Positions 3,093 through 21,397 of a stretch of 22,696 nucleotides of DNA are shown piece by piece. Position 1 is the stretch's first letter; every line of letters starts with the position of its first letter. Location of the stretch: positions 1 through 22,696 of the IMG/VR virus record IMGVR_UViG_3300034374_003418. One strand, written 5' to 3'. Position numbers and translations under genes: made by a program. The notes under the pieces were generated by a model. It had not been told where the DNA came from, made no database searches, and saw nothing but the letters and a program-made list of their open reading frames with translations. The DNA is from a virus.

Positions 3093-4634
3093 TTACAGTT
3101 CTACTTCGTGCAAGTCAAGCCAATTTTTACCTGCTTTGATCTCTATTCCGACGGGCATGTTGTACGTGACACCATAACGTCGAACAGTTTCAAAGGGTAA
3201 ACTCAGCATAGCGTGTTTCATCATGTCTATGCAAATATTTTTTTCGTCCGGGTGTACGTCCATCACAATCGAATCGTGTACCGTGTTACAGATAACGCTC
3301 CGTACGCCGGAATCGCGTACGACCTTCTCTAAGGCGACGAGAGCAATAGGAAGCAAGTCAGCCGTAGCGAACCCCTGCACCGGGTAGTTACAGATCGAGG
3401 TGCGGTGGGTAGCCGTGCCGTACTTTGTCCAGCGGGCATCGGGGAAGGCGTACTCCCGTCCGGACGGAATGGCGATTACTCGCTTCTCAACAGCCGTACG
3501 CTGGAGGTAGTCGTGCCACTGGGTAATACCCTCGTACTTCTCCTTGAACGCCCTGTAGTAGCGTTGTTGAGCCTCTGTGCCGGTCGTGCCCCCATAGAGA
3601 GGCTTGAAGGTGTGTGCCTTCGCCTCTTGTCGTGTGCAGCCGATAACGGATGCGGTGTAGTTGTGTACGTCCGTTCCATCCCGTACGTCGATGTACGCCT
3701 GTGCATCGTTGGCAAGGAACCCGGCAACCCGAAACTCTAGCTGCGAATAATCTCCTTCAACGATGAAACCACCCTCGAAGCGGCTCTCGACCACCTTGCG
3801 TATAGCGAAGGTATTTCCACGTGGCATATTCTGAAAGTTAGGATTGCGAGACGAAAGGCGACCCGTCGCCGTAACACACTGCATAAACTCCGGATGGATG
3901 AATCCCTTCTCATCGACATTGTTCTTGATCCCTTCTACGAATGTGTTGAGGTACGTACGCAACGCATTGAACCGGACGTACCCCGTGACAAACTCACGAG
4001 CCGGACCGGACAACTCGGACGAGCGTACGTCGAGTGTCTCCTTGTCCGTACGAAACCCTGCAGAGGCCACGTCGTACGAATCTCGCGGTGATATCTTGAA
4101 CCCGGCAACTTCCGTACTCGGTATGTAAAGAACGCCGACACCATCGCACCGCTTGCACACACGTACCGCTTTGCCGAGCGTACCGTCCTTCTTCGTTACG
4201 CGGTTACGACCGTGACCGTTGCACCCGGTACACGTTTCGGCACGTGTCTTGTAAACGATGTCGGTCATACGACGTACGGTCTGGTTGAACTCACGCCGGG
4301 AGAAGCGGGTACGCTGCTTCGGCTTCATCGTTGCGCCGCGCTGTTCCATACCCAAGTTGAATGTACGCGACCAAGCCTTCTTGTCCTTAACCTTACGAGA
4401 GTAGAGTAGCATCGACCGGTCATCGGGGCTTGTCAGGCTAACAGGCGTGTCGCCCATCGCGTCACGCGCCAAGTCGTTGAGACGCGCCTCTAAGGACTCT
4501 AGCTCTTCGGTATACATCTTCTCGATCTCGTCGAGCGTATCCATGTTTATCTTTAGGCCGACACGCTCGACACGAGCGAGTACGTCTGTCATTTCAAGCG
4601 ATAGCTTTAGTGTGGGTATCAAGCCCTTTTCCAT
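3093..4634 (-). CDS. polA: Family A DNA polymerase with an internal DnaJ-type zinc finger
   Basis: This is the polymerase half of a family A replicase (513 aa); its exonuclease is a separate upstream gene. TGRLSSRNPNFQN (257-269), motif A VEGDYSQLE (D295), motif B RQEAKAHTFKPLYG (335-348) and motif C TVHDSI (D454) are all present. The residue equal to E. coli F762 is Phe, a type common among lytic phages. Motif C has HDS in place of the usual HDE. Residues 135-167 form a partial DnaJ-type zinc finger, CTGCNGHG and CKRCDGVG (C135, C138, C160, C163), inserted before the palm; this oddity has been reported in phage HMO-2011. GAGGAG lies seven bases before the ATG. The first 41 bases overlap the exonuclease gene in another frame. 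Confidence 0.96.
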   Translation of the reverse strand: MEKGLIPTLKLSLEMTDVLARVERVGLKINMDTLDEIEKMYTEELESLEARLNDLARDAMGDTPVSLTSPDDRSMLLYSRKVKDKKAWSRTFNLGMEQRGATMKPKQRTRFSRREFNQTVRRMTDIVYKTRAETCTGCNGHGRNRVTKKDGTLGKAVRVCKRCDGVGVLYIPSTEVAGFKISPRDSYDVASAGFRTDKETLDVRSSELSGPAREFVTGYVRFNALRTYLNTFVEGIKNNVDEKGFIHPEFMQCVTATGRLSSRNPNFQNMPRGNTFAIRKVVESRFEGGFIVEGDYSQLEFRVAGFLANDAQAYIDVRDGTDVHNYTASVIGCTRQEAKAHTFKPLYGGTTGTEAQQRYYRAFKEKYEGITQWHDYLQRTAVEKRVIAIPSGREYAFPDARWTKYGTATHRTSICNYPVQGFATADLLPIALVALEKVVRDSGVRSVICNTVHDSIVMDVHPDEKNICIDMMKHAMLSLPFETVRRYGVTYNMPVGIEIKAGKNWLDLHEVEL

Positions 4635-5175
4635 CGAACAACTCCTCGAATGTTACGCCAAAGGCGTCTAGCTGTTTTAGTGCAATCTCTTCCGTAGCCT
4701 TTACGTCGGCTACTCCGTACTCTCGTACGATTTCCCACGGTATGTCGTAGAACGTCTTGCCATTCTCGATATACGGCGAAACAAGGTCAGTCTCCTTTTG
4801 GGTGACACCATACTTCCTTGCAAGAGCAGCAAGTCCGAGAGGCCAACGCCGTGCCTTCGAAAGTATGTATTCAGCAACCATCGTATCATAGATGTCTCCG
4901 TCGTAAGTAAAGCCACACTCGCGTATCCACTGCAAGTCGAACTTTATGTTTTGGCCGACGAGTACGTCAGCGAAGGAAAGGGCGCGTTGAAAGTTGTCGT
5001 ACGCACCCGCTGTGGTCGGCTCGGTCGAGTGGTAGTAGCAGTCGTAGTCAACGCTGCTGGTGAGCCACTTGTACCCGATGGACACCAAGCGGTTGCCGAA
5101 GTATGGCAGAGGCGTGTAGCCCCCGCTCGGCTTCTCCACGTGCGTCGTCTCGACATCAAAAGTGAGTACGTTCAT
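4594..5175 (-). CDS. DnaQ-like 3'-5' exonuclease (proofreading partner of the polymerase)
   Basis: This 193-aa protein holds the 3'-5' exonuclease domain normally fused to family A polymerases. Exo I is LTFDVETT (D7, E9), Exo II is NIKFDLQW, and Exo III is YGVADVKATEE in the Yx3D arrangement. The ATG at 5175 overlaps the helicase stop as TGATG. An in-frame start at 5256 would only extend into the helicase gene. The 3' end overlaps the polymerase start by 41 bases. The last residues (FDGKGL) and the polymerase's first residues (MEKGL) come from the same DNA read one base apart, so a +1 slip near GGA-AAA-GGG could join the two into the usual single chain. It presumably proofreads for the polymerase in trans. 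Confidence 0.92.
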   Translation of the reverse strand: MNVLTFDVETTHVEKPSGGYTPLPYFGNRLVSIGYKWLTSSVDYDCYYHSTEPTTAGAYDNFQRALSFADVLVGQNIKFDLQWIRECGFTYDGDIYDTMVAEYILSKARRWPLGLAALARKYGVTQKETDLVSPYIENGKTFYDIPWEIVREYGVADVKATEEIALKQLDAFGVTFEELFDGKGLDTHTKAIA

Positions 5176-6404
5176 CAGTAGTATACCCCTCGCTGTACGT
5201 CGATGTTCGCGTTGATCATGTCGTGGTATCCGTTGATTTTGTTCTTCGAGATACACACGTGCCGAACCGTGTTGGTCACGTCACTCGCACCCGTCTTGCC
5301 GATACCGATGATGATGTCGGCCTCACCCGCCTTACCCGTACGCGAATTGTCGAGCATCGAGTAGTCAATAAATTGACGGTCGTGCGCTTCGTAACTCGCC
5401 TGACTCACGGCCCAGACGAGGCAGTCGTTGCGCTTGGCGATCTCCCGTGCCTTCACGTACGTTTCCTTCAAGCGTTCGTCTCCCCGGTTGTACTCGCCAC
5501 CGATACGAAACTTGTCTAGCTGGTCCATGAACATCACGTCCGGCTTGTTGAGTTTGGCGTAGTCATCCGCCTCTTCGACAGACGTACCCACCGAATCCAT
5601 GATTGTCAGGTACGGTGCGATGTCACGGGCGTACACGGTACGCATCCGCTCACGGTCCGCCTTCATCTCGTCCTTTGTTATTCCGACAAACGACTGAATG
5701 ATACGCAGCTTAATCTTCTTTGCCGGTTCCTCGTTTGCCCAGTACGTCACCCTGAACCCCTGACGAATGTACGACGCCGCAAGGAAGCAGCAGAATGTTG
5801 TCTTTCCGACTTCCGGACGCGCAAACAAGATACCCAAGTTGCCCCGGTCTAGGCCCGGTACGTGTTCCCGGATCAACTCGAACTCAAAAGGGAAGTCGGG
5901 TTCTCCCGTGTTTTCATCCAAGAGTGTGTCGATGTCATCCTCGACGACACTGTACGTCGTCTTGTCAGAAATCCGACCATCCTCTACAACGTCAATTAAC
6001 TGACGCAAGCCGCCGAAGTCCTCACTTTCTCCGGTGAAGATTTCGATTGCCTTCTCCCCGATCTGACGCGCACGATCACGCAGCCAGAAATTATTCACCA
6101 AGTCGAGATATAGGTCGTGCTTGTCAGGCATACCCGCTTCGAGTTCCGCGATCAACTCCTGTGCCTTCTCACGCGTGGAGTCCGGCATCGCAGGGTTCCT
6201 GTCGTTGAACAAGGCACCGAGTTCGCGTACGTTTACCGACGTACCGTATTGCGTGTGCGCGTACGATATCACGTCGAACACGTCACGCATCTCTCCGGTG
6301 AACATGTCTCGTGTCACGATGTTCGACACCTTCGTGAAGAAGTCGTTGTCGAGTACGAATCCGAGTACCTGTTTATCGATTGATATGGGATCGTAAGAAG
6401 TCAT
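5175..6404 (-). CDS. Replicative DNA helicase, DnaB-like
   Basis: This 409-aa protein is a RecA-fold helicase of the DnaB/T7 gp4 type that unwinds DNA ahead of the polymerase. An N-terminal helical domain (about 1-140) precedes the motor domain. Walker A is ARPEVGKT (195-202), Walker B is VMFMD (290-294), and VWAVSQAS (330-337) matches the Q-containing motif 3. YSMLDNSRTGKAGEADIIIGIGK resembles the DnaB motif 4 region. The ATG at 6404 has AAGGA eight bases upstream and overlaps the primase 3' end by 32 bases. In T7 primase and helicase are fused; here they are adjacent genes, as in many marine podoviruses. Confidence 0.94.
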   Translation of the reverse strand: MTSYDPISIDKQVLGFVLDNDFFTKVSNIVTRDMFTGEMRDVFDVISYAHTQYGTSVNVRELGALFNDRNPAMPDSTREKAQELIAELEAGMPDKHDLYLDLVNNFWLRDRARQIGEKAIEIFTGESEDFGGLRQLIDVVEDGRISDKTTYSVVEDDIDTLLDENTGEPDFPFEFELIREHVPGLDRGNLGILFARPEVGKTTFCCFLAASYIRQGFRVTYWANEEPAKKIKLRIIQSFVGITKDEMKADRERMRTVYARDIAPYLTIMDSVGTSVEEADDYAKLNKPDVMFMDQLDKFRIGGEYNRGDERLKETYVKAREIAKRNDCLVWAVSQASYEAHDRQFIDYSMLDNSRTGKAGEADIIIGIGKTGASDVTNTVRHVCISKNKINGYHDMINANIDVQRGVYY

Positions 6405-11748: not shown

Positions 11749-11757
11749 AAAACGTAC
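11748..11757 (-). repeat. AAAAACGTAC box directly after a stop codon (box C)
   Basis: AAAAACGTAC begins in the TGA of the winged-helix gene. It is one of eight copies of AAAACGTAC or its complement in noncoding or gene-end positions between 7.8 and 12.6 kb. The orientation is given as the strand reading GTACGTTTTT. A six-pair GGCGGG/CCCGCC stem lies at about 11767-11787. Confidence 0.55.
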
Positions 11758-11809
11758 AACGATGGGGCGGGGCGCTGTTGTCCCGCCTCAACCACGAAAG
11801 GATGAAACG

Positions 11810-12031
11810 ATGAAAACCACCCTTCAAAAAGAAATGACCGTTTCCGACGCCCGCGATACCGTCGTACTCACCGAGACAGAAGCCCGCGCCATCCGCAACA
11901 TGGTTTCAGGCATCCGGACACAGGTGGACGCCCTCGAAAGCGTTTTAGAGTCTTCCGGCATCAGTAGTTGGATATCCAAAAACAGTCCGCGCAGTCTTGC
12001 CAACTTTGAATTTAAGATCACCGACGAATAA
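11810..12031 (+). CDS. Unknown protein, 73 aa
   Basis: ATG 11810 follows AAAGGAT by seven bases. The product starts MKTTLQKEMTVSD, has a probable coiled helix (TETEARAIRNMVSGIRTQVDALESVLES) and ends ANFEFKITDE. I do not recognise it. An in-frame upstream ATG (11732) would begin inside the winged-helix gene and has no site. The TAA stop is immediately followed by an AAAACGTACCC box and a terminator, so it closes this unit. Confidence 0.7.
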   Translation: MKTTLQKEMTVSDARDTVVLTETEARAIRNMVSGIRTQVDALESVLESSGISSWISKNSPRSLANFEFKITDE

Positions 12032-12041
12032 AAACGTACCC
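12031..12041 (-). repeat. AAAACGTACCC box directly after a stop codon (box D)
   Basis: The box starts at the last base of the TAA stop of the 73-aa gene. It has the same sequence as the boxes at 12531 and 12565 through AAAACGTACCC. It lies between the stop codon and the 12056 terminator. Confidence 0.55.
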
Positions 12042-12055
12042 GAATATCCCCAATT

Positions 12056-12089
12056 GGCCCGCTTGGCATAGTCCGGCGGGCCTTTTTTT
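12056..12089 (+). terminator. Rho-independent terminator
   Basis: GGCCCGC (12056-12062) pairs perfectly with GCGGGCC (12076-12082), followed by seven T. It ends the accessory unit that contains the DUF932 and winged-helix genes. Confidence 0.88.
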
Positions 12090-12444
12090 GTGCGCGGCCT
12101 TGTTAAATGCTTTGCGGTTTGTAATGGCGGGATAATTCGGCGGGGCTTGCGTTCGGGGATTGCTGGCCTTTCCGGCATCGATCAATGGCATCGGGACATT
12201 AGGGGGATGACAAAAAGAGCAACGCGCGGGTGTGCGCGGCGTGTAGCCCATTGTGATTCCGGCGGGATTATTCGGCGAGTACGTTTTGCGGGGCGGTGGG
12301 CACCTCGGCGAGGTGATCCTGTGACAAGAAAAACTGAAATAAATCCGCCGTGCGCGTGGGTACGCATGGGCCACCCGGGGTACCCCCGCATTTGCATGCA
12401 ATACCGCCATCAATTTTATTTTTTTGGAGTAACCGGGGTGTATA
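12090..12444. other. Gene-free GC-rich stretch with short repeats and palindromes
   Basis: I see no convincing gene: the open frames on both strands are rich in Arg, Pro, Cys and His and lack ribosome binding sites. A 17-base sequence GGCGGGATAATTCGGCG (12126-12142) recurs with one change at 12261-12277. The second copy runs into GTACGTTTT (12279-12287, box E). Two perfect 10-base palindromes lie close together, GGGGTACCCC (12377-12386) and TTGCATGCAA (12392-12401). A T-run follows at about 12412-12426. The content fits a control or replication region more than degraded coding sequence. Confidence 0.6.
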
Positions 12445-12466
12445 AAAACGTACGCCCCCGGGAGGC
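12445..12466 (-). terminator. Hairpin-GTACG-TTTT element (box F), leftward
   Basis: On the minus strand GCCTC-CCG-GGGGC can pair (five pairs, one of them U-G), followed by GTACGTTTTT. It is the last of three such elements downstream of the leftward promoter at 12657. Confidence 0.35.
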
Positions 12467-12473
12467 ACCTTAA

Positions 12474-12513
12474 TCCCTCAATGTGCTATAAGAATATATA
12501 GCTCTTTGAGGGA
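12474..12513. repeat. 17-bp inverted repeat with six-base loop
   Basis: The left arm 12474-12490 (TCCCTCAATGTGCTATA) and right arm 12497-12513 (TATAGCTCTTTGAGGGA) pair with two mismatches around AGAATA. The centre is A+T-rich inside a G+C-rich region. This could be an operator, an origin element or a transcript hairpin. There is no T-run directly after it on either strand, so a plain terminator is unlikely. Confidence 0.8.
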
Positions 12514-12530
12514 ATAAGGCGGGGGCGGAC

Positions 12531-12555
12531 AAAACGTACCCCTTTGGGGAAAGGG
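12531..12555 (-). terminator. Hairpin-TACG-TTTT element (box G), leftward
   Basis: On the minus strand CCCTTT-CCCC-AAAGGG is a perfect six-pair hairpin, followed by G, TACG and TTTT. The box AAAACGTACCCC (plus strand 12531-12542) is identical to box H, 34 bases away, and both are flanked by the same C before and T after. Confidence 0.45.
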
Positions 12556-12564
12556 CGGGGGAGC

Positions 12565-12622
12565 AAAACGTACCCCTAACGTGGGGTCGGGGCGGGGTAT
12601 ATAGTTTACCCCGGCGGGCCTT
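12565..12622 (-). ncRNA. Candidate short leftward RNA ending at a hairpin-TACG-TTTT element (box H)
   Basis: The leftward promoter at 12657 should start near 12622. The transcript would contain a perfect hairpin with arms CGGGGTA and TACCCCG (12613-12593, seven pairs, seven-base loop). A second hairpin follows (CCCC-ACGTTA-GGGG, 12586-12573), then TACG and TTTT (to 12565). This gives an RNA of about 58 bases with no frame worth translating. It could be a small regulatory RNA, an attenuated leader, or an origin transcript. The evidence is promoter plus structure only. Confidence 0.3.
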
Positions 12623-12628
12623 AAGCCC

Positions 12629-12663
12629 AGTGTACAGTCGAAAATCGCTTTTGTCAAGAAAAA
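12629..12663 (-). promoter_or_regulatory. Candidate leftward sigma70-type promoter (PL)
   Basis: On the minus strand TTTTTCTTGACA (12663-12652) is followed after exactly 17 bases by TACACT (12634-12629). The 12-mer is identical to those of P1 and P2. It points into a region with no gene. Its -35 lies nine bases from that of the rightward promoter PR, so the two probably compete or are co-regulated. Confidence 0.55.
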
Positions 12664-12666
12664 AAG

Positions 12667-12695
12667 TTGACACCCCGGTTATTCATCGCTATACT
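12667..12695 (+). promoter_or_regulatory. Strong sigma70-type promoter (PR) for the late block
   Basis: TTGACA (12667-12672), exactly 17 bases, then TATACT (12690-12695). This is close to the bacterial consensus. The start should be near 12702, which is exactly where an 11-base inverted repeat begins. It lies upstream of terminase and all structural genes. No phage RNA polymerase is seen in this window, so host RNA polymerase is the likely user. Confidence 0.75.
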
Positions 12696-12701
12696 TAGGG
12701 C

Positions 12702-12782
12702 GTGAACCACACTTTTACCCGTCACACCACCCCATAAACGCTTCCGTTTTAACAAAGTTGGTACGACGCACGTGTGGTTCAC
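12702..12782 (+). ncRNA. Structured 5' leader RNA of the late transcript
   Basis: GTGAACCACAC (12702-12712) and GTGTGGTTCAC (12772-12782) are perfect complements and enclose nested shorter helices. These are CGTC 12720-12723 with GACG 12765-12768, ACCA 12726-12729 with TGGT 12759-12762, and AAACG-CTTC-CGTTT at 12736-12749. The outer stem begins at the predicted transcription start. The first ribosome binding site (AAAGGA, 12791) lies just outside the fold. It may stabilise the mRNA, sense a ligand or protein, or be an operator pair at DNA level. The inner helices are short and less certain. Confidence 0.55.
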
Positions 12783-12804
12783 CTCAATTCAAAGGAAAAA
12801 CCCC

Positions 12805-13005
12805 GTGTTCACCGCAATCGTATTCGCGTGTACGTTTCATATCACGCAAGAATGCCTCCGTTTCGAGGATACACGGGGTCCGTACGCCACAGAAGAGCGG
12901 TGTATCGAGCGGATCGTCGAAATGACCGCGAATATTCGCTCTATATCCCCCGAATTCCGAGTTGTACGTACGACGTGCGTACCTAATCCCGGACTAGCGA
13001 CGTAA
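12805..13005 (+). CDS. Small Cys-containing protein, 66 aa
   Basis: I start at GTG 12805, which has AAAGGA eight bases upstream. A GTG at 12772 in the same frame lies in the leader stem. The product begins MFTAIVFACTFHITQECLRF and has four Cys (A-C-T, E-C-L, R-C-I, T-C-V) in a pattern seen in short exported proteins of marine phages. The N-terminal ten residues are hydrophobic but short for a signal peptide. The function is unknown. It is the first gene of the late transcript and ends three bases before terminase small subunit. Confidence 0.65.
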   Translation: MFTAIVFACTFHITQECLRFEDTRGPYATEERCIERIVEMTANIRSISPEFRVVRTTCVPNPGLAT

Positions 13006-13008
13006 AAA

Positions 13009-13419: not shown

Positions 13420-13639
13420 CAATGTAATGAAAAGCTTAAAGGGCGAGAAACCCACGTACGAAGAAATTCAGCGGGACGTTATGCGTATCGCACGTGAAAA
13501 CGACTTAACTGACGAACAAGCGGGTATCTTGATGAAGCGAAAGCTCCGTCAAGCCGGACTCGAAGTGAAGGATATGCGTTATGGCGGAAAAGCCTGTCGT
13601 GGACGAAAAGCAGCCGGAAGCGCCGAGAAAGCGCGGTAG
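13406..13639 (+). CDS. Small protein between terminase subunits, 77 aa
   Basis: ATG 13406 overlaps the terS stop by 14 bases and has GAGG nine bases upstream. The sequence KPTYEEIQRDVMRIARENDL, TDEQAGILMKRKLRQAGLEV is well-formed and helical. The last 20 residues are Arg/Lys/Ala-rich and lie in a 59-base overlap with the terminase large subunit. The function is unknown; the position suggests a packaging accessory protein. The C-terminal tail looks like a by-product of the overlap. Confidence 0.65.
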   Translation: MELPSNVMKSLKGEKPTYEEIQRDVMRIARENDLTDEQAGILMKRKLRQAGLEVKDMRYGGKACRGRKAAGSAEKAR

Positions 13640-15299
13640 GCCAAAGCGCGATCCGAATGCGCCTAAAGCCACATATCAACTCTCTACAAAAGAACGTGCG
13701 AGACGCGCGGCGACGAAACGTGTTAACGCCGCCAAGCGACGTGCCCAAAAGACAAGCAAGGCCGCAGAAGACAAACGCCGCTACGCCCGTCAACTCGAAG
13801 AAAAGGTCACAAAAGTTGAAGAAGCTCTCAAAGGCAATAAGTCTGCCACAGTCGATCTTGGGGATTTGGATGATCTGCCTAGCGCAGTGGCAGACCTCGT
13901 CGGCGAAAGCGAAGTCGTTTTTCAACCGAATAGCGGACCTCAGACGGACTTTCTTTCGGCGGGTGAACGAGATGTTCTCTACGGGGGAGCAGCCGGGGGT
14001 GGTAAATCTTTCGCTCTCTTGGCCGATCCTCTGCGCTTCTGTCACAACCCTAATCATCGTGGGCTTCTTCTTAGGCGTACTCTCGACGAGCTAACCGAAC
14101 TCATCGACAAGTCACGCCAGCTATATACAAAGGCGTTCCCCGGTGCCAAGTTCCGTGAGTCGAAGTCCACGTGGGTTTTTCCGTCGGGTGCAACAATCTG
14201 GTTCACGTATCTCGACAAAGACAAAGACGTAACCCGTTTTCAGGGTCAAGCGTTCAACTGGATAGGTATCGATGAGATAACGCAATACCCCACACCGTAC
14301 GTTTGGGATTACCTTCGCTCTCGTCTCCGTGCAACAGACCCGGAGTTGCAGCAACATTTGTACATGCGCTGCACAGCCAACCCCGGTGGTGTCGGCGGCT
14401 GGTGGGTCAAGAAAACGTACATCGATGGGATCGAACCGAACAAGCCTTTTGCTGCGTTCGACATAGACACCGGAAAAGAATTCCTGTGGCCCCCCGGTCA
14501 CGAGAAAGCAGGTCAGCCCCTGTTCCTTCGCAAGTTTGTACCGGCACGGCTGACCGACAATCCCTACCTGATGGCAGACGGCCAGTACGAGGCTATGCTC
14601 AGGTCGCTCCCGGAAGTCGAGCGAAAGCGGCTTCTCGAAGGTGATTGGGACGTGGCGGAGGGAGCGGCCTTCCCCGAATTTTCGAGATCGAGACATGTGG
14701 TCGAACATTTTGAACTTCCAACCAACTGGCCCCGCATACGTGCGGCAGACTACGGGTACGCGAGTCCGTCGTGCGTTCTATGGGGGGCTATTGACTGGGA
14801 TAACAATATCTGGGTTTATCGCGAACTATATGCTAAACACTTGACAGCAGAAGAGTTGGCTGATAAAATACTAGAAGCAGAGGAGCTAGACCCACAACCG
14901 CACTACACCGTCTTGGACTCCTCGTGCTGGAACAAGACGGGTTTCGGACCCTCGATAGCAGAGACGATGATGCGAGTCGGTGTGCGTTGGACGCCATCCG
15001 ACCGTAACCGCATACAAGGCAAGATGGAAGTACATCGCCGCCTCGCTAACGACCCGTACACCGAAGAGCCTCGCCTTCGCATCTTTTCAACGTGTACGAA
15101 TACCGTAAAGCAACTCGCGGGCATACCCCTATCAAAGTCGAACTCTGAAGACGTAGACACGAAAGCTGAAGATCACGCATACGACGCTCTTCGCTACATG
15201 GTGATGACACGTATGAGTGGGTACGCTTCGATCCATCAGCAACTCGGCGCAATCAAGAACCAAGTGTACCAAGTACAAGACGCGACATTCGGATACTAA
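13581..15299 (+). CDS. terL: Terminase large subunit
   Basis: This 572-aa packaging motor has an ATPase and a nuclease domain. Walker A is GGAAGGGKS (135-143), Walker B is WIGIDE (D231, E232), and the coupling motif region contains CTANPGG. The RNase H-like nuclease shows D390 in RAADYGY, D446 in VLDSS and D535 in DHAYDALRY. The first 90 residues are an unusual basic, Lys/Arg-rich extension (PRKRGRPKRDPN, with an AT-hook-like RKRGRP) that precedes the usual start of the domain and may bind DNA. GAAGGA lies nine bases before the ATG. It overlaps the small upstream gene by 59 bases. Confidence 0.97.
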   Translation: MAEKPVVDEKQPEAPRKRGRPKRDPNAPKATYQLSTKERARRAATKRVNAAKRRAQKTSKAAEDKRRYARQLEEKVTKVEEALKGNKSATVDLGDLDDLPSAVADLVGESEVVFQPNSGPQTDFLSAGERDVLYGGAAGGGKSFALLADPLRFCHNPNHRGLLLRRTLDELTELIDKSRQLYTKAFPGAKFRESKSTWVFPSGATIWFTYLDKDKDVTRFQGQAFNWIGIDEITQYPTPYVWDYLRSRLRATDPELQQHLYMRCTANPGGVGGWWVKKTYIDGIEPNKPFAAFDIDTGKEFLWPPGHEKAGQPLFLRKFVPARLTDNPYLMADGQYEAMLRSLPEVERKRLLEGDWDVAEGAAFPEFSRSRHVVEHFELPTNWPRIRAADYGYASPSCVLWGAIDWDNNIWVYRELYAKHLTAEELADKILEAEELDPQPHYTVLDSSCWNKTGFGPSIAETMMRVGVRWTPSDRNRIQGKMEVHRRLANDPYTEEPRLRIFSTCTNTVKQLAGIPLSKSNSEDVDTKAEDHAYDALRYMVMTRMSGYASIHQQLGAIKNQVYQVQDATFGY

Positions 15300-15302
15300 T
15301 CG

Positions 15303-17321
15303 ATGGCAGACGAACCGACAAGCATAAATAAAAACAAGTCTGCTGTAGATATCTTGATAGATAGCTTAAAGCTAGACTTAAAAGAGGTACAAAAATTTGA
15401 CACGATAGATGCCGCATATTTTGGTGGTAAGGCAGGTACAACAGTACCAGTTCCAAAAAAATTTACTGCCGAACAAACTCTCTCTTTTATGAGGATGTTT
15501 CCTTCTACTTATCCACTTGCGGATGAAAACGCTTACTTCGGAATTGCAAGCGCATTGACTACGGAATCTCCTGAGTTATTTGATATAGACAGCTTTGATG
15601 CTTACGAAAAAAAATTTGGAAAGACTATGGAGATGCAAGAAAAGGGTGCATCTGCATCTAAAAATATAACAACAGCAAAGACACCGAAAGCAGCAAACGT
15701 GGCAAATATCATGGAAACACTCGATCCAAAGATAGCTACAATACGAGAAGTTGCACAGGCGTACGCTACGAAGAATAAACGTGGGGACGCCTTCGTCACA
15801 TCCTCCGTACAGTTCTTCAAAGACATCGCTGACGAACCCGGCTCTGCTATGCGCCTCTTTGAAAAGGACGCAGATGGAATCACTCTCCTCGCCCGTACGT
15901 TCAAGGATAGTGAAGACACGTCAACCGTCAAGACTGCTATGCAAAACTTGCGGCAGGTTGGCTTGACGCTTAAAGGATTGTACGGACCGGACACTCCTGA
16001 ATACAAACTCCTCCCAGACAAATCCCCAAATACGGACCTCAACAATCGAATCTTCGGACGCTCCGAACCTGCAAAGGCAGTATCTGAGGTCTCAATCAAT
16101 CCGGATAAGGCCAAGATGAGCGAGTTGTTCGCGGGTGTTGCACAGTATCTCGACGATCCCAAGACTCGTCCTATTGCACAAGCAATCATTTTTAATTTGA
16201 ACACGGGCCTACGTCCTAACGCTGCGGCAGGTCTCAAAGTAACATCTTACAAGCCTGACAGCGGTGCTATTTATATCGAATCAGAAGCAAAGGGTGCGAA
16301 GGGACGTGCTGTCAATATTCCCTTGAACCCGATTGCAGATAGCATCTTGCAACAGAACCTAGCTGCTGGCAACAAAGACTTTTTCTTTGTCAAGGAAAAC
16401 GGGAAGCCCGTAACCTCACAAGACATGACTGATCTCTTGAAGACAGTGAAAGTGGAGGACATTGCATTCGATGCAGCAACACGTCGTTACTTTGACACTC
16501 TCGCCCCCGAAGGTTTTACCGGTAAGAAGGGTTCACAACTTCTTCGAAATGTTCACGCTACAGTCGGACGATCGATTGGTATCGATCAAGACCGCCTCGC
16601 GTACCTTCAAGGTCGTAGTCTCAAGTCGGCAGGTAAAAGCAGCACAGGCGAATTGACAACCTATCAGCAAGCCTTCCCCGGTGCGGTCGGAGAGGTTGAT
16701 AGGGCAAACGCAAATATGTTTGCAAGTTTCTGGGGTGATGCTGCGGCAGAGGCTGGATTTAATATCGGGGAACGCATCCCGATGCCAACAGAAAGAATCA
16801 CTACTCAAACTCCCGGATATGAAGGATACTTTGAACTGCCTACACAAGAGGCACCCGTTAAAGTAGCTCCGGAAGCAGACGCGCCTCTGCCAACCAGTCC
16901 CGCCGACTTCGATGATGACACAAAGGCTGCCCTCAAGAAGGGTGGTTTTAACATCGACTATTCGAAACTTCCTTCGAGACTTTTAGGACCACTCGGCTTA
17001 GGCTTAACGACTGCGGCGGCTATTACGACAGGGACTGCTGTTAGACAACGAGCAGAGGCTATGGGCATACCTGATCCTCTCGCAAAGACAGCCGGTGTAG
17101 TTGCCGGAGCATCCGAGTTCCTGCCTGTGCCGCCATCAGACGTAGCAGAAGTACAGCCTGATCCGTTCTCAATGCGTCCTGTTGAGCGGGCCGCAGCAGA
17201 GAGTGAAACAGTTCGCGAAGGCTTGAAGACCACTGGTCAACTTCAAGAGGCCGCGCCACGGGAGACCCGGAAAGCTGCTCCCGCACCAATCGACGATAGC
17301 TTTCTAACAATGTCACCATAA
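15303..17321 (+). CDS. Large protein with a tyrosine-recombinase-like domain
   Basis: This 672-aa protein sits between terL and portal. Residues about 285-460 resemble a tyrosine recombinase catalytic domain. TGLRPNAAAGL (R304) matches box I, IYIESEAKGAKGRAVNIPL gives the Lys strand (K330/K334), QLLRNVHATVG (R415) matches box II with Gln for the first His, and Y454 is a candidate nucleophile. LQGRS stands where LGHS is usual, so activity may be altered or lost. The N-terminal 280 residues are unrecognised. The C-terminal part has a Pro/Ala-rich linker and a hydrophobic stretch (LLGPLGLGLTTAAAITTG, 560-577). The gene's 5' end is A+T-rich and CGTAC is sparse throughout, unlike its neighbours. 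The ribosome binding site is weak. Confidence 0.72.
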   Translation: MADEPTSINKNKSAVDILIDSLKLDLKEVQKFDTIDAAYFGGKAGTTVPVPKKFTAEQTLSFMRMFPSTYPLADENAYFGIASALTTESPELFDIDSFDAYEKKFGKTMEMQEKGASASKNITTAKTPKAANVANIMETLDPKIATIREVAQAYATKNKRGDAFVTSSVQFFKDIADEPGSAMRLFEKDADGITLLARTFKDSEDTSTVKTAMQNLRQVGLTLKGLYGPDTPEYKLLPDKSPNTDLNNRIFGRSEPAKAVSEVSINPDKAKMSELFAGVAQYLDDPKTRPIAQAIIFNLNTGLRPNAAAGLKVTSYKPDSGAIYIESEAKGAKGRAVNIPLNPIADSILQQNLAAGNKDFFFVKENGKPVTSQDMTDLLKTVKVEDIAFDAATRRYFDTLAPEGFTGKKGSQLLRNVHATVGRSIGIDQDRLAYLQGRSLKSAGKSSTGELTTYQQAFPGAVGEVDRANANMFASFWGDAAAEAGFNIGERIPMPTERITTQTPGYEGYFELPTQEAPVKVAPEADAPLPTSPADFDDDTKAALKKGGFNIDYSKLPSRLLGPLGLGLTTAAAITTGTAVRQRAEAMGIPDPLAKTAGVVAGASEFLPVPPSDVAEVQPDPFSMRPVERAAAESETVREGLKTTGQLQEAAPRETRKAAPAPIDDSFLTMSP

Positions 17322-17339: not shown

Positions 17340-17558
17340 ATGCCAGACAACAACTATAACTACGGTGCTGACTACATCATGAATTCGCCGAACACTTCGG
17401 TTGATGACGCGATGGGTTCAGACAAGTTGTACCGTGAAGGTCTCGAGTTCGATACTCGTGCCAAGACGGATGTCTTGACGGAAGATATGCCGAAGAAAAT
17501 GACTAAGGCCGCTATCGATCCGTCCGTCATGCGTATGGCCGAAGAACGCGATTACTAA
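17340..17558 (+). CDS. Small protein upstream of portal, 72 aa
   Basis: ATG 17340 has GGGGAG nine bases upstream. The product begins MPDNNYNYGADYIMNSP and contains DKLYREGLEFDTRAKTDVL and ended helices; it is acidic and soluble. I do not recognise it. It lies 12 bases before portal, and such small genes next to portal often encode head or head-completion proteins, so a virion role is possible. Confidence 0.7.
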   Translation: MPDNNYNYGADYIMNSPNTSVDDAMGSDKLYREGLEFDTRAKTDVLTEDMPKKMTKAAIDPSVMRMAEERDY

Positions 17559-17570
17559 GAAAGCGAAAGA

Positions 17571-19688
17571 ATGGCTGACAATTTCCTAGAGCCGGAAGAC
17601 GATCAGACCATCCCCCTCGTCGAACCGACGGAGCGGATGCCCGGTCTCGCCGGATATATTCGTGCGAAATTCGAAGATGCGGAAAACGGACGGTACGTTT
17701 ACGAGCAGCGATGGCTCCAAGCGTACAAGAATTTTCGCGGCATCTACGATTCGACGACACAATACCGCGACTCCGAACGGTCGAAGGTCTTCATCAAGAT
17801 CACCAAGACCAAAGTCCTTGCGGCGTACGGGCAAATTGTTGACATTCTTTTCGCTAACAAAAAGTTTCCGCTCGTAGTAGAGTCTACGCCGATGCCGGAA
17901 GGTATCGCGGAGTTTGCCCACATGCGTACTCCGGCGGATGAAGTCAATCAACAGAGCGACCCGTACGGTTTTCCGGGCGATGGTCGTGAACTCGCTCCGG
18001 GTGCTATGTCCGTTTCTGAGCCACACGTCTTGGGATCGTATGGCAAAGAATTCGGAGATATGCTCGTACCCGGCAAGGCAAAGATGGGTGAGCCGCAGTT
18101 TGAACCTGCAAAGGAACAAGCTCGGCGTATGGAAAAGTGTATCCACGATCAACTCCTCGACACAAATGCCGTCAACGTATTTCGCAAGGCGATCTTCGAG
18201 TCTGCCCTGCTCGGTACGGGCATTGTAAAGGGTCCGTTCAACTTCCACAAGCGAATTCACCAGTGGAAGCGGGGAGATGATGGAGAGCGGGAGTACGAGC
18301 CGTACGAAAAGACCGTACCGCGTATCGAACCCGTGTCCGTGTGGGACTTTCATCCGGACCCGTCCGCAACAACTATCGAGGACTGCGAGTACGTCATCGA
18401 ACGTCACCGCATGAACCGCCAACAGCTTCGTAGCCTCATCATGCGTCCGCACTTCGATGCGGAAGCGATCCGTGAGTGCCTTGCAAAGGGTCCGAACTAC
18501 GAGGACAAGTATTACGAAGATACGATCCGGGAAGACGAAACGGAGCCGTACGTAGCCGAAAACCGCTACGAAGTCCTCGAATACTGGGGCGTCTTGGATG
18601 CCCAGTTTGCAAATGCGGTGGGGATGGAAGAAGCGAAGAACATGTCCGAGTTCGACCAGATTCAGGTCAACGTCTGGGTGTGCGGCAACATGGTTCTTCG
18701 TTGTGTTGTCAACCCGTTTACTCCGGCACGTATTCCGTACCAAGCGTTTCCGTTCGAAATCAACCCGTACCAGATTTGGGGTGTCGGTGTTGCCGAGAAC
18801 ATGGAAGACGCACAGATGCTGATGAACGGTCACGTGCGTATGGCGATCGACAACCTCGCCCTTGCCGGTAACCTCGTCTTCGATGTCGATGAAGCGTCGT
18901 TGGTACCCGGACAGAACATGGACATCTTCCCGGGTAAGATTTTCCGTCGTCAGTCGGGTGTCACGGGCACGGCTATCAACGGCCTCAAGTTCCCGAACAC
19001 GGCCCCCGAAAACATACAGATGTATCAGATTTCACGCCAGCTTGCGGACGAAGAGACGGGCATCCCCTCGATTATGCACGGCCAGACGGGTGTAACCGGC
19101 ACTGGACGTACGGCAGCGGGCCTGTCGATGCTGATGGGCAGTGCGGGCTTGTCGATGAAGACGGTCATCAAGAACATCGACGATCACCTCTTGAAGCCGC
19201 TCGGCGAAGCGTACTTTCAGTGGAACATGCAGTTCAACGATGACGCCGACGATATCGTGGGCGACTTGGAGATCAAACCACGAGGCGTAGCGGCAGTTAT
19301 GCAAAAAGAGGTACGTACGCAACGTCTAACCTCTCTCTTGCAAACGGTTGCCAACCCTATGCTAGCTCCGTTTGTCAAGATTCCGAACCTGATGCGAGAG
19401 TTGGCAATCGCACAGGACATCGATCCGGACAGTCTCGTCAACGATGTCAACGAAGCACAAGTATACGCACAGATGTTACAAGGGATGATGCAAGATGCTC
19501 AACAAGCAGCAAGCGCAGAAGCTAGCGGCGCTCCTCCACAGCAAGGAATGGCCCCTAATGGAGGAGTACCTAGCGGACCTCCGGGAGGTGACGATTCAGG
19601 CCGTGGTAACGGCACAATCGGAGTCGGAGTTGCGCCAAACGCAGGGGAAGCTGGCTTTACTGGAAATGCTCCTCAAATTGAAGAGTAA
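17571..19688 (+). CDS. Portal protein (head-tail connector), 705 aa
   Basis: The protein forms the ring at the capsid vertex through which DNA passes. Its length and layout match portals of marine podoviruses. A helical N-terminus (YIRAKFEDAENGRYVYEQRWLQ) is followed by a segment of the type KITKTKVLAAYGQIVDILF, a long alpha/beta core with EPVSVWDFHPDPSA, and the helical stem region near QISRQLADEETGIPS. The placement after terminase is standard. The last 60 residues are Gly/Pro/Ala-rich low complexity (PPQQGMAPNGGVPSGPPGG). They coincide with a second gene read in another frame, so the tail probably reflects that overlap. The upstream purine stretch AAGAAAGCGAAAG serves as ribosome binding site. 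Confidence 0.93.
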   Translation: MADNFLEPEDDQTIPLVEPTERMPGLAGYIRAKFEDAENGRYVYEQRWLQAYKNFRGIYDSTTQYRDSERSKVFIKITKTKVLAAYGQIVDILFANKKFPLVVESTPMPEGIAEFAHMRTPADEVNQQSDPYGFPGDGRELAPGAMSVSEPHVLGSYGKEFGDMLVPGKAKMGEPQFEPAKEQARRMEKCIHDQLLDTNAVNVFRKAIFESALLGTGIVKGPFNFHKRIHQWKRGDDGEREYEPYEKTVPRIEPVSVWDFHPDPSATTIEDCEYVIERHRMNRQQLRSLIMRPHFDAEAIRECLAKGPNYEDKYYEDTIREDETEPYVAENRYEVLEYWGVLDAQFANAVGMEEAKNMSEFDQIQVNVWVCGNMVLRCVVNPFTPARIPYQAFPFEINPYQIWGVGVAENMEDAQMLMNGHVRMAIDNLALAGNLVFDVDEASLVPGQNMDIFPGKIFRRQSGVTGTAINGLKFPNTAPENIQMYQISRQLADEETGIPSIMHGQTGVTGTGRTAAGLSMLMGSAGLSMKTVIKNIDDHLLKPLGEAYFQWNMQFNDDADDIVGDLEIKPRGVAAVMQKEVRTQRLTSLLQTVANPMLAPFVKIPNLMRELAIAQDIDPDSLVNDVNEAQVYAQMLQGMMQDAQQAASAEASGAPPQQGMAPNGGVPSGPPGGDDSGRGNGTIGVGVAPNAGEAGFTGNAPQIEE

Positions 19689-19719
19689 TCACGAGGCGGT
19701 GGTGAGAAACGATGGCTAA
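19495..19719 (+). CDS. Overprinted small helical protein inside the portal 3' end, 74 aa
   Basis: ATG 19495 follows AAGGGA by about nine bases. The product (MLNKQQAQKLAALLHSKEWP, LMEEYLADLREVTIQAV, ESELRQTQGKLALLEMLLKLK) is a clean amphipathic two-helix protein. It resembles small conserved proteins found just after portal genes in many phages. It overlaps portal by 194 bases and the next gene by eight. Its well-formed composition, against the low-complexity portal tail in the other frame, argues that this is a real gene. Function unknown; perhaps a head-assembly factor. Confidence 0.75.
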   Translation: MLNKQQAQKLAALLHSKEWPLMEEYLADLREVTIQAVVTAQSESELRQTQGKLALLEMLLKLKSNHEAVVRNDG

Positions 19720-21397
19720 CAAAGAAAATAAAACTATTGAGCCTGTCGCTATGCAGCAGGGGGGTGTTGCCGGAACTTTAACTCCCGAACAGTATCAGCA
19801 ACAATTTATCGACTATTATAATTTTGGGGGTATCGGCGTGACAGGTGCCCCTGATCCTGATCCTGATCCCGATCCTACCCCTGATCCGGTTCGTCCGGAC
19901 ATCCTCACGCCCGTTGGTCAGCGTGATGAAAGCGCACCGAACATCTTTAGGCAAGTGCCTATCGGAACCGGTCCGGCGTACGACATATCCGATGTCGATC
20001 CGAATGAATACATTGCTAACTTTGGAAAAGACAGGACAACGTACACGAGTGACGCGGGCGGCTTCAAGGAGTATCTCAAACGAGGCGCACAATCTATCAA
20101 GGATCGGAATATGGAAGTTCCGGGCGTTGTTTCCTTGACGGGCTTACCCATAGGTGCTTTGGCGTACGGTGCGGCTGAACTCAACAGGGCACAACAAAAA
20201 AAGAACGCAAACGCAATTGGTCAAGCCGGAGGAAATGCCGGTTCGATGTTTACTCTCAACGGTCAGACCGTGAGCCGTGCGCCGGGTAGTACGCGCTTCG
20301 ACGGTACGATTGTAGGAATGTCGAACGAACAACTCTATCGTCTCGACGAGATTCGTAATAAGTTTATTCCGGGTACGATGAAAGAAACTAAAGTTACTGG
20401 ATTTCAAAATATCATCGGATCAGGGTACACGCGCACCGGCAAGGAAGCCCTATCGTCTGCGGGAGACGTTGTGATCGACGCATTCGGAACCGTACACGGT
20501 GCGGGTGGTCCGCAGATGGTCGGAGCGTTGCAAGCCGAACGTGCGCGGGAAAAGATGTTCCGAGATGCGATGTCAGGAAGAAGCCTCGAAGGTGTCAACG
20601 TATCGAGTGCAGCCCTCGCTATGAAGCAAGCTCTCGACGCGGAGATGCGCGGAAGCAAGTCGTTCTTTACGACTACGGCCCGCATGAGTGACGACGATTA
20701 TAACAAAGCCCTCACTCGTTCTCAACAGTTTATCCAAAACTACGTGTCTAAAAATTACGGATCGGAAGAAGAAGCCCCAGCCGCTCCGACTATACCCGAA
20801 ACTGTTACCCAAGCACAAGAACAGGCGGGTGGTTCGCAGCCTTCGGGTGGCGGAGGTGGAGGAGATAGCGGCGGCAGCAGTGGCAATTCGTACTCCATAG
20901 AAGAAATTGCCCGTGAGACAGAAGAAGCATACGCAGATTCTGGCGGAGCCGATTATAGCTGGGACTTTAAGATGGGCGGTCGCGTTGAGATGCAAGCGGG
21001 TGGCGTAGCCCAGCAGCCACAACCCGCCGGATTCGTCGGCGGTCCACCCGAGAACTTCACCGACGGCCAGACCGTAGCGGACGATCAGCCGATGTCCGTC
21101 CCGGAGGGTACGTTTGTCATCAACGCGGCGGCTGTCGAGTTCGCCGGATCGGACGACATCAAGAAGATGCTTTCAGATGCGTACGGTAAGATGCAGAAAA
21201 AGGTTGACAAAACTATCGGCGTTGCTAGAATACCAACAGAGGATGAAATCGATGTTGCCGTCTCTCGTGGCGAAGTCATCGTACCTCCCGAAGTAGCAAA
21301 AATCATCGGCTACGACCGTCTCGAAAAAATCAACAATCGTGGCAAGAAGGAAGTCTCCCGTCGGCAAGAAGCGGCAGGAGGTGGCTTCCTCACATAA
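19712..21397 (+). CDS. Large virion-like protein, 561 aa
   Basis: I do not recognise a named family, but proteins with this C-terminus occur between portal and scaffold in marine phages. The N-terminal part has a DPDPDPDPTPDP repeat (about 47-58). A hydrophobic segment (VVSLTGLPIGALAYGAA, about 138-154) follows, then a Gly-rich linker (GGSQPSGGGGGGDSGG). The C-terminal block has VPEGTFVINAAAVEFAG and SRGEVIVPPEVAKIIGYDRL. That last block recalls short repeats at the end of internal or tail-associated phage proteins. The ATG at 19712 lies inside the previous gene's stop region with GGTGAG upstream. A role as an internal or ejected virion protein is plausible but inferred. Confidence 0.7.
   Translation: MANKENKTIEPVAMQQGGVAGTLTPEQYQQQFIDYYNFGGIGVTGAPDPDPDPDPTPDPVRPDILTPVGQRDESAPNIFRQVPIGTGPAYDISDVDPNEYIANFGKDRTTYTSDAGGFKEYLKRGAQSIKDRNMEVPGVVSLTGLPIGALAYGAAELNRAQQKKNANAIGQAGGNAGSMFTLNGQTVSRAPGSTRFDGTIVGMSNEQLYRLDEIRNKFIPGTMKETKVTGFQNIIGSGYTRTGKEALSSAGDVVIDAFGTVHGAGGPQMVGALQAERAREKMFRDAMSGRSLEGVNVSSAALAMKQALDAEMRGSKSFFTTTARMSDDDYNKALTRSQQFIQNYVSKNYGSEEEAPAAPTIPETVTQAQEQAGGSQPSGGGGGGDSGGSSGNSYSIEEIARETEEAYADSGGADYSWDFKMGGRVEMQAGGVAQQPQPAGFVGGPPENFTDGQTVADDQPMSVPEGTFVINAAAVEFAGSDDIKKMLSDAYGKMQKKVDKTIGVARIPTEDEIDVAVSRGEVIVPPEVAKIIGYDRLEKINNRGKKEVSRRQEAAGGGFLT
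19850..19887 (+). repeat. Six-base tandem repeat (CTGATC type) in coding sequence
   Basis: Repeated CTGATC units, some changed to CCGATC or CTACCC, encode alternating Asp-Pro near the N-terminus of the 561-aa protein. Such a tract can change in length by slippage in steps that keep the reading frame. Confidence 0.8.

Follow-up and report, generated by a model that had tools for sequence, protein, structure and literature searches.

Gene content of the locus

The window analysed here is a 22.7-kb virus fragment, in which an open reading frame of 672 amino acids occupies exactly positions 15303-17321 (+), between the genes for the large terminase (terL) and the portal protein. This interval is called here the slot, and its main product the slot protein (Table 1). 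A tyrosine-recombinase-like domain had been placed between terL and portal by the first-pass annotation, and the claim is confirmed by the ORF coordinates, the neighbouring genes, the predicted fold and the catalytic residues described below. In most related loci the slot gene starts within a few nucleotides of the terL stop. The ORF of about 72 amino acids that separates it from portal has no annotation but is strongly conserved in the clade (sequence MPDNNYNYGADYIMNS...MAEERDY).

The source viruses are uncultured, aquatic and HMO-2011-related. As judged from its gene content, the fragment is from an HMO-2011-type podovirus, because it encodes a DNA polymerase with a DnaJ-type insert, an endonuclease I, an SU10-type portal and terL. 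Among cultured phages, HTVC104P/115P, CRP phages and HMO-2011 give the best matches, with about 45-60%. In the ocean, the HMO-2011 type ranks with the most abundant phages.

Elsewhere in the window, two overlapping ORFs (3093-4634 and 4594-5256, -) together make up the family A DNA polymerase; one encodes a 3'-5' exonuclease of 220 aa, the other a polymerase of 513 aa with the DnaJ-type insert. In HMO-2011 the DNA polymerase is a single gene. Ahead of terS, a stretch of about 1.2 kb (11750-13008) contains little convincing coding sequence, is partly conserved in loci L046 and L068, and is possibly a packaging, origin or regulatory region. No Rfam match was found in the window.

Table 1. Features at the terL-portal slot, with positions in the window; counts given for the subfamily include only homologues that cover the residue in question
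Feature	Position	Strand	Remarks
terL, large terminase	13581..15299	+	phrog_979, E 9e-61; stop just upstream of the recombinase start
Slot protein, 672 aa: N-module, tyrosine-recombinase core (predicted) and C-module	15303..17321	+	
Optional N-module, residues 1-136	15303..15710	+	GC 38%; residues ~12-112 predicted well folded
Core-binding-type helical domain (predicted)	15711..16070	+	residues ~137-256; AF2 model, structural alignments from ~137
Catalytic domain and helical extension (predicted)	16083..16850	+	residues ~261-516; Pfam match 290-385
R304, box I catalytic Arg	16212..16214	+	subfamily 33/33; slot recombinases 43/43
K330, candidate Lys of the beta2-beta3 hairpin	16290..16292	+	subfamily 33/33; without alignable counterpart across subfamilies
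R415, box II catalytic Arg	16545..16547	+	subfamily 32/32; slot recombinases 43/43
R438, at the GH His position	16614..16616	+	His in 25/45 rows, Arg in 18/45
Y454, nucleophile candidate	16662..16664	+	subfamily 30/30; Tyr in 41/45 rows
C-module, residues ~560-672	16983..17318	+	Ala/Gly-rich, moderately hydrophobic; reassorts among cores
C-terminal motif D-D-S-F667-L-T-M-S-P	17292..17318	+	F667 invariant in the subfamily alignment
ORF of ~72 aa between slot gene and portal	17340..17558	+	in nearly all clade loci
Portal, SU10/HMO-2011 type	17571..19688	+	phrog_332, E 4e-83; SU10_portal, E 4e-26

Modular architecture of the slot protein

The slot protein is modular: its core belongs to one of about 15 clusters, an N-module may precede it, and the C-module reassorts. 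What had been described as a long N-terminus of unknown nature falls into two parts, the optional module (residues 1-136), which has clean breakpoints, and a core-binding-type domain that begins at about residue 140. In nucleotide alignments, the gap in L005, L006 and L007 corresponds precisely to positions 15311-15718, and Met137 is the start point of relatives lacking the N-module. The suggestion that base usage betrays an import applies mainly to this module, with 38% GC against 54% in terL and portal; the core has 50% GC and normal codon usage.

At the other end, nucleotide homology with L046 breaks off at 15727 and restarts at 16983, and L068 has only the C-module in common with the window, from 16986. 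One C-module family was found paired with six core clusters. The C-terminal stretch, previously called hydrophobic, is only moderately so, the best 19-aa Kyte-Doolittle window scoring 1.17 (family median 1.29).

Predicted fold and active site

By its predicted fold and its Arg-Arg-Tyr residues, the slot protein is a member of the tyrosine recombinase superfamily. Pfam Phage_integrase matches residues 290-385 at E 4e-5, which is below the curated cut-off, and the PHROGs integrase family phrog_216 matches at E 4e-7; PF00589 was reached by only 13 of 45 slot-set proteins, even at E 0.01. The AF2 model is confident at residues 12-112 and ~137-515 (pLDDT mostly ~85-95 over 137-515) and poor at the C-terminus, where pLDDT is mostly low. 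In Foldseek, Tn1549 Int, Xer and lambda Int matched this model with a probability of 1.00, and VIA-align of the predicted fold gave Z scores of 12-14, with Xer-like proteins and phi3T SroF among the structural neighbours. Structure prediction and both fold comparisons thus point to a tyrosine recombinase fold at residues ~137-515. A second AF2 model, for the slot protein of L110 (15 sequences), is weaker, with a pLDDT of 61 and only weak integrase matches.

The residues R304 (in TGLRP), K330 (in the Lys region), R415 (in LLRNVHAT) and Y454 (in LTTYQQAF) are located where the first-pass annotation had put them. An alignment of 45 rows, comprising 43 slot recombinases and two outsiders at a mean identity of 16%, has R304, R415 and Y454 as the columns conserved at 90% or more, besides Met1 and F362. 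The three catalytic positions, being nearly the sole conserved columns, do not vary freely, and rows without Tyr in the Y454 column are mostly misaligned beside a Tyr. A chance resemblance to integrases is rejected by the predicted fold together with this conservation.

Two departures from the canonical boxes had been remarked upon. The first box II His is indeed absent, with Gln in its place, but this is a trait of the family, which has A, Q, S or P at position 412; likewise LGHS does read LQGRS here, with Arg at 438, but His occupies that position in other cores of the same slot. With both Arg residues and the Tyr kept, the slot recombinase looks catalytically intact, and DNA cleavage and rejoining are its predicted activities.

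Distribution and cassette exchange

The recombinase gene is universal at the terL-portal slot in the clade, as well as hypervariable and modular. The slot protein was found at 49 loci in IMG/VR, and a search of 50,697 phage records gave no homologue at E 0.01. Relatives whose terL is 70-97% identical carry a recombinase gene at this point, the order terL-recombinase-portal occurs in every informative related locus, and neither an empty slot in the clade nor a slot-type gene at other positions in relatives was seen. In loci fetched by means of terL, the space is filled by one protein of ~520-820 aa plus the conserved ~72-aa ORF; in L136 the slot protein is split into two overlapping ORFs. At 38% identity the cores form 15 clusters. 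Profile searches with two further subfamilies gave 131 informative loci, all of them adjoining terL or portal; the idea of standalone relatives of other cores was rejected, as both subfamilies occur only at terL-portal. An unbiased check that started from the ejection-type late gene discussed below found a recombinase in the slot in all eight genomes (8/8).

Outside the clade the slot is different. HMO-2011 and CRP phages have terL adjoining portal without a slot recombinase, and HTVC phages have small ORFs between the two genes. Single-linkage clustering gathered 78 of 80 unique large slot proteins into one cluster; the two outsiders, both from distant rhizobial phages, are a GDSL-type hydrolase and, as inferred from one match, an FAD-dependent oxidoreductase. 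In rhizobial relatives (L054, 3.0-6.8 kb; L056, 3.9-6.5 kb) the space between terL and portal is filled otherwise, with phoH, small ORFs and an SGNH/GDSL hydrolase in phiM6 and with an 849-aa probable FAD-dependent oxidoreductase in RHph_N3_19. Elsewhere, then, the slot takes other cargo.

Median identity between genomes is 23% for the slot protein, compared with 87% for the C-terminal part of terL, 72% for the N-terminal part of portal and 69% for the ~72-aa ORF. L006 and L046 are 99% identical in the terL C-terminal part and 2% in the slot protein. Within a cluster, the core dN/dS of 0.03-0.06 indicates strong purifying selection, and positive selection within a core is rejected on these values. 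Because the borders are sharp, the C-modules occur on different cores and dN/dS is low, the diversity is attributed to cassette exchange, and not to relaxed or positive selection; it is through such exchange that the slot gene diverges far faster than its neighbours. The ~15 very divergent recombinase cores constitute a resource for new site specificities.

A C-terminal motif in common with a putative ejection protein

Close to their C-termini, C-modules that are not otherwise related converge on the motif [GSN]F[LMI]. Of the 78 unique slot proteins, 62 have the stricter [GS] form, whereas shuffled sequences gave 0.85 on average and 5 at most. The motif is very short and was noticed post hoc; these shuffles address chance composition and not common descent of the tails. 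The wider form is found in 34 of the 56 distinct slot-protein tails of a later set. Some slot recombinases among L331-L463 have no F motif and end instead in a common LDxQIxxLLxxR, perhaps a second docking tail.

A scan of all proteins from ten long records showed that the same motif marks a gene of ~180 aa preceding two giant genes, and 45 of 58 unique homologues of its product carry it (shuffle null 1.1, maximum 4). The order and sizes of the three genes in the clade (~180, 630-1160 and 1490-1660 aa) match those of the podovirus ejection trio (PMC8954989), and the three products are, by position and size, a putative ejection-type trio. No useful PHROGs or Pfam match names the ~180-aa or the giant proteins. 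Tails from the same genome, the slot protein followed by the ~180-aa protein, include DNFLTMQP and ENFMTMKK; further pairs are DSFMTMQP/ENFMNMKP and QGFLSR/RGFLSE. A strict co-variation of G and S in the motifs inside genomes was considered and is unconvincing, the pairs being few.

The ~180-aa protein is the product of an HMO-2011-family core gene (APPPGHSLT...WPWEQPP..., loci L205-L242 and L243-L322). The 56.8-kb record G001 has near-identical, but not identical, 177-aa ORFs at its ends (L205 1-600 and L207 16044-16577), which probably reflect strain variation where a circular or permuted map overlaps. The 561-aa protein encoded after portal (19712-21397) varies in its body, is conserved over the C-terminal ~120 residues and ends in GGGFLT; endings similar to the slot motif occur in 8 of 29 of its relatives. 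Portal C-termini, such as the end of 17571-19688, have an acidic [GN]FTG stretch, AGFTGNAPQIEE, which is reminiscent of [GSN]F.

Possible functions of the slot recombinase

The combination of an intact-looking enzyme with a tail like that of an ejection protein suggests that particles may contain the recombinase, and the swapping of cores on a conserved chassis suggests a target that varies between hosts. The favoured reading, to which a probability of roughly 0.4 is given, is that a recombinase with predicted activity is made late, docked into the virion and ejected with the genome to act on specific DNA sites. The enzyme would be produced from the packaging/head operon, and its Ala/Gly-rich C-module with the [GSN]F[LMI] end would serve to dock it in the head, or in the portal core, during assembly. 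Carried in the particle and delivered with the genome, it would then cut and rejoin specific sites in the recipient. It would track something that varies between hosts, whether DNA of the host, a resident element or a competitor, and not the phage's own conserved genome. The first-pass annotation had considered a recombinase fold reused in the virion or in packaging, or a recombinase acting on concatemers, and is supported in part. Reuse in the virion gains indirect support from the motif in common with the putative ejection protein. Retention of the catalytic residues makes a purely structural, inert fold unlikely.

A fuller version, in which the clade as a whole packages its recombinase via the C-terminal docking motif and injects it, while swaps of the core redirect the enzyme to DNA of hosts, prophages or competitors, is unlikely as a whole. 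Several points weigh against packaging. No virion proteome was found, and the 50,697 phage records contain no homologue. The motif is missing in ~20% of the first set of slot proteins and in 22 of 56 tails of the later one, the ejection role of the ~180-aa protein is based on position and size, T7 gp14 homologues carry transmembrane helices, and the position of the gene can be accounted for without encapsidation.

The latter account supposes an unpackaged late recombinase that works in the producing cell, its substrate being phage DNA in replication or in concatemers, and its task perhaps multimer resolution; the gene would lie beside terL because multimers would be resolved before terminase cutting. 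The tight coupling to terL, the Xer-like structural neighbours and the finding of no other recombinase in long relatives all agree with it, and it is the rival that survives best, if still a doubtful one. Housekeeping of a phage's own DNA should not need ~15 core clusters that swap under near-constant flanks, sister HMO-2011 and CRP-type phages do without such a gene at terL-portal, and the tail motif in common with an ejection-type protein is left unexplained.

Temperate phages whose integrase has moved into the late operon, and in which core swaps change the att site, are a further possibility, and an improbable one. Integrases of HMO-2011-type phages are known upstream of the replication module or primase (HMO-2011 gp09, CRP-3 gp02), and several subgroups were reported without lysogeny genes (PMC9038755; PMC6918029). 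The canonical enzymes thus have another position, the clade has no other PF00589 match (each of 14 long relatives gives a single match, which fits the slot gene), and integrase swapping does occur among temperate phages, all of which would suit relocation. A mis-placed early integrase was rejected, since the canonical primase-side site has no integrase here and the PF00589 matches of relatives lie in the slot. On the other side, 14 records gave no HTH_3 repressor (PF01381) above cut-off and no HTH_17 excisionase (PF12728) match, although divergent or other families could escape both; seven near-complete genomes had no tRNA; and no att traces were found in the window or in near-complete genomes. 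There is also almost no intergenic space beside the gene for an attP. A genome-contig scan yielded relatives of 47-56% in MAG contigs, otherwise more distant terminases, and no prophage of the clade, an absence which, like that of att traces, is weak evidence because the hosts of the clade are undersampled. Because repressor, excisionase, tRNA and prophage were not found, a temperate role is unsupported, and the slot protein is not filed as an integrase, no lysogeny feature having been found; nor is it filed as an ejection protein, for which particles are required. To our knowledge, the early integrase is the only gene from which studies of the HMO-2011 group judge lysogeny.

Homing endonucleases beside terminases act as exclusion cassettes, and the slot gene might by analogy be a selfish or genotype-exclusion cassette that cuts the locus of a co-infecting relative, which its own cassette then replaces. 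Sharp exchange borders, reassortment of cores and C-modules, and near-identical backbones with unrelated cores (L006/L046) would be expected of such an element. This explanation is quite improbable. Homing genes pass through a cycle of gain, decay and loss, whereas here empty slots were not seen within the clade, the catalytic residues show no decay and dN/dS is very low; ordinary homologous recombination in the flanks would give the same mosaic. Least probable is a non-catalytic structural or regulatory use of the fold, which the absent box II His, the change of box III His to Arg in the subfamily of the window and the recombinase-fold phage regulator phi3T SroF among the structural neighbours might suggest, but which is at odds with both Arg and the Tyr being nearly the sole conserved columns at 16% identity and with the canonical GH kept in many sister cores.

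Under the virion-delivery reading, the slot protein would found a new class of injected enzymes. No description was found either of a recombinase delivered by virions or of a counterpart to the T4 internal proteins that is based on a recombinase, and the slot protein would be both. Even if unpackaged, it would leave a recombinase with a link to DNA packaging to be explained. The slot tails provide a candidate C-terminal packaging motif that is directly testable.

Comparison with known systems

A catalytically conserved recombinase, universal in a clade, is found here where none was expected. Nothing comparable to a virion-borne or terL-portal recombinase was found in a literature search that covered few subscription papers, and for a universal, hypervariable late-slot recombinase with an ejection-type tail no comparable system was found in what was mainly open literature.

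Tn1549 Int, XerA/XerH and lambda Int have in common with the slot protein the core-binding and catalytic domains, the R...R...Y residues and, in K330, a candidate for the catalytic Lys. The slot protein differs from these tyrosine recombinases in its added N- and C-modules, its late slot, its hypervariability, the missing box II His and the box III Arg. The canonical HMO-2011-type integrases (gp09; CRP-3 gp02) belong to the same superfamily and occur in the same virus group, but they are stand-alone early genes of ~290-360 aa, whereas the slot gene is late, large and without signs of lysogeny.

The internal proteins of T-even phages are a highly diverse set whose only common feature is a capsid targeting sequence (PMC3012670). 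Their combination of a conserved targeting signal with diverse cargo (IPI*) resembles the slot protein, by analogy only. The T-even cargo consists of small anti-restriction proteins with a processed targeting sequence, which is N-terminal, whereas the slot protein has a C-terminal motif and is always a recombinase. With the T7 gp14/gp15/gp16-type ejection proteins the connection is through the clade trio, which has that order and whose first member has the C-terminal motif in common with the slot recombinase. The slot recombinase itself has an enzyme fold and is encoded elsewhere, outside the trio. The phi3T SroF-type proteins are another case in which a phage uses the recombinase fold, but these are repressors that have lost the catalytic residues, whereas the slot protein strictly keeps its catalytic Arg and Tyr.
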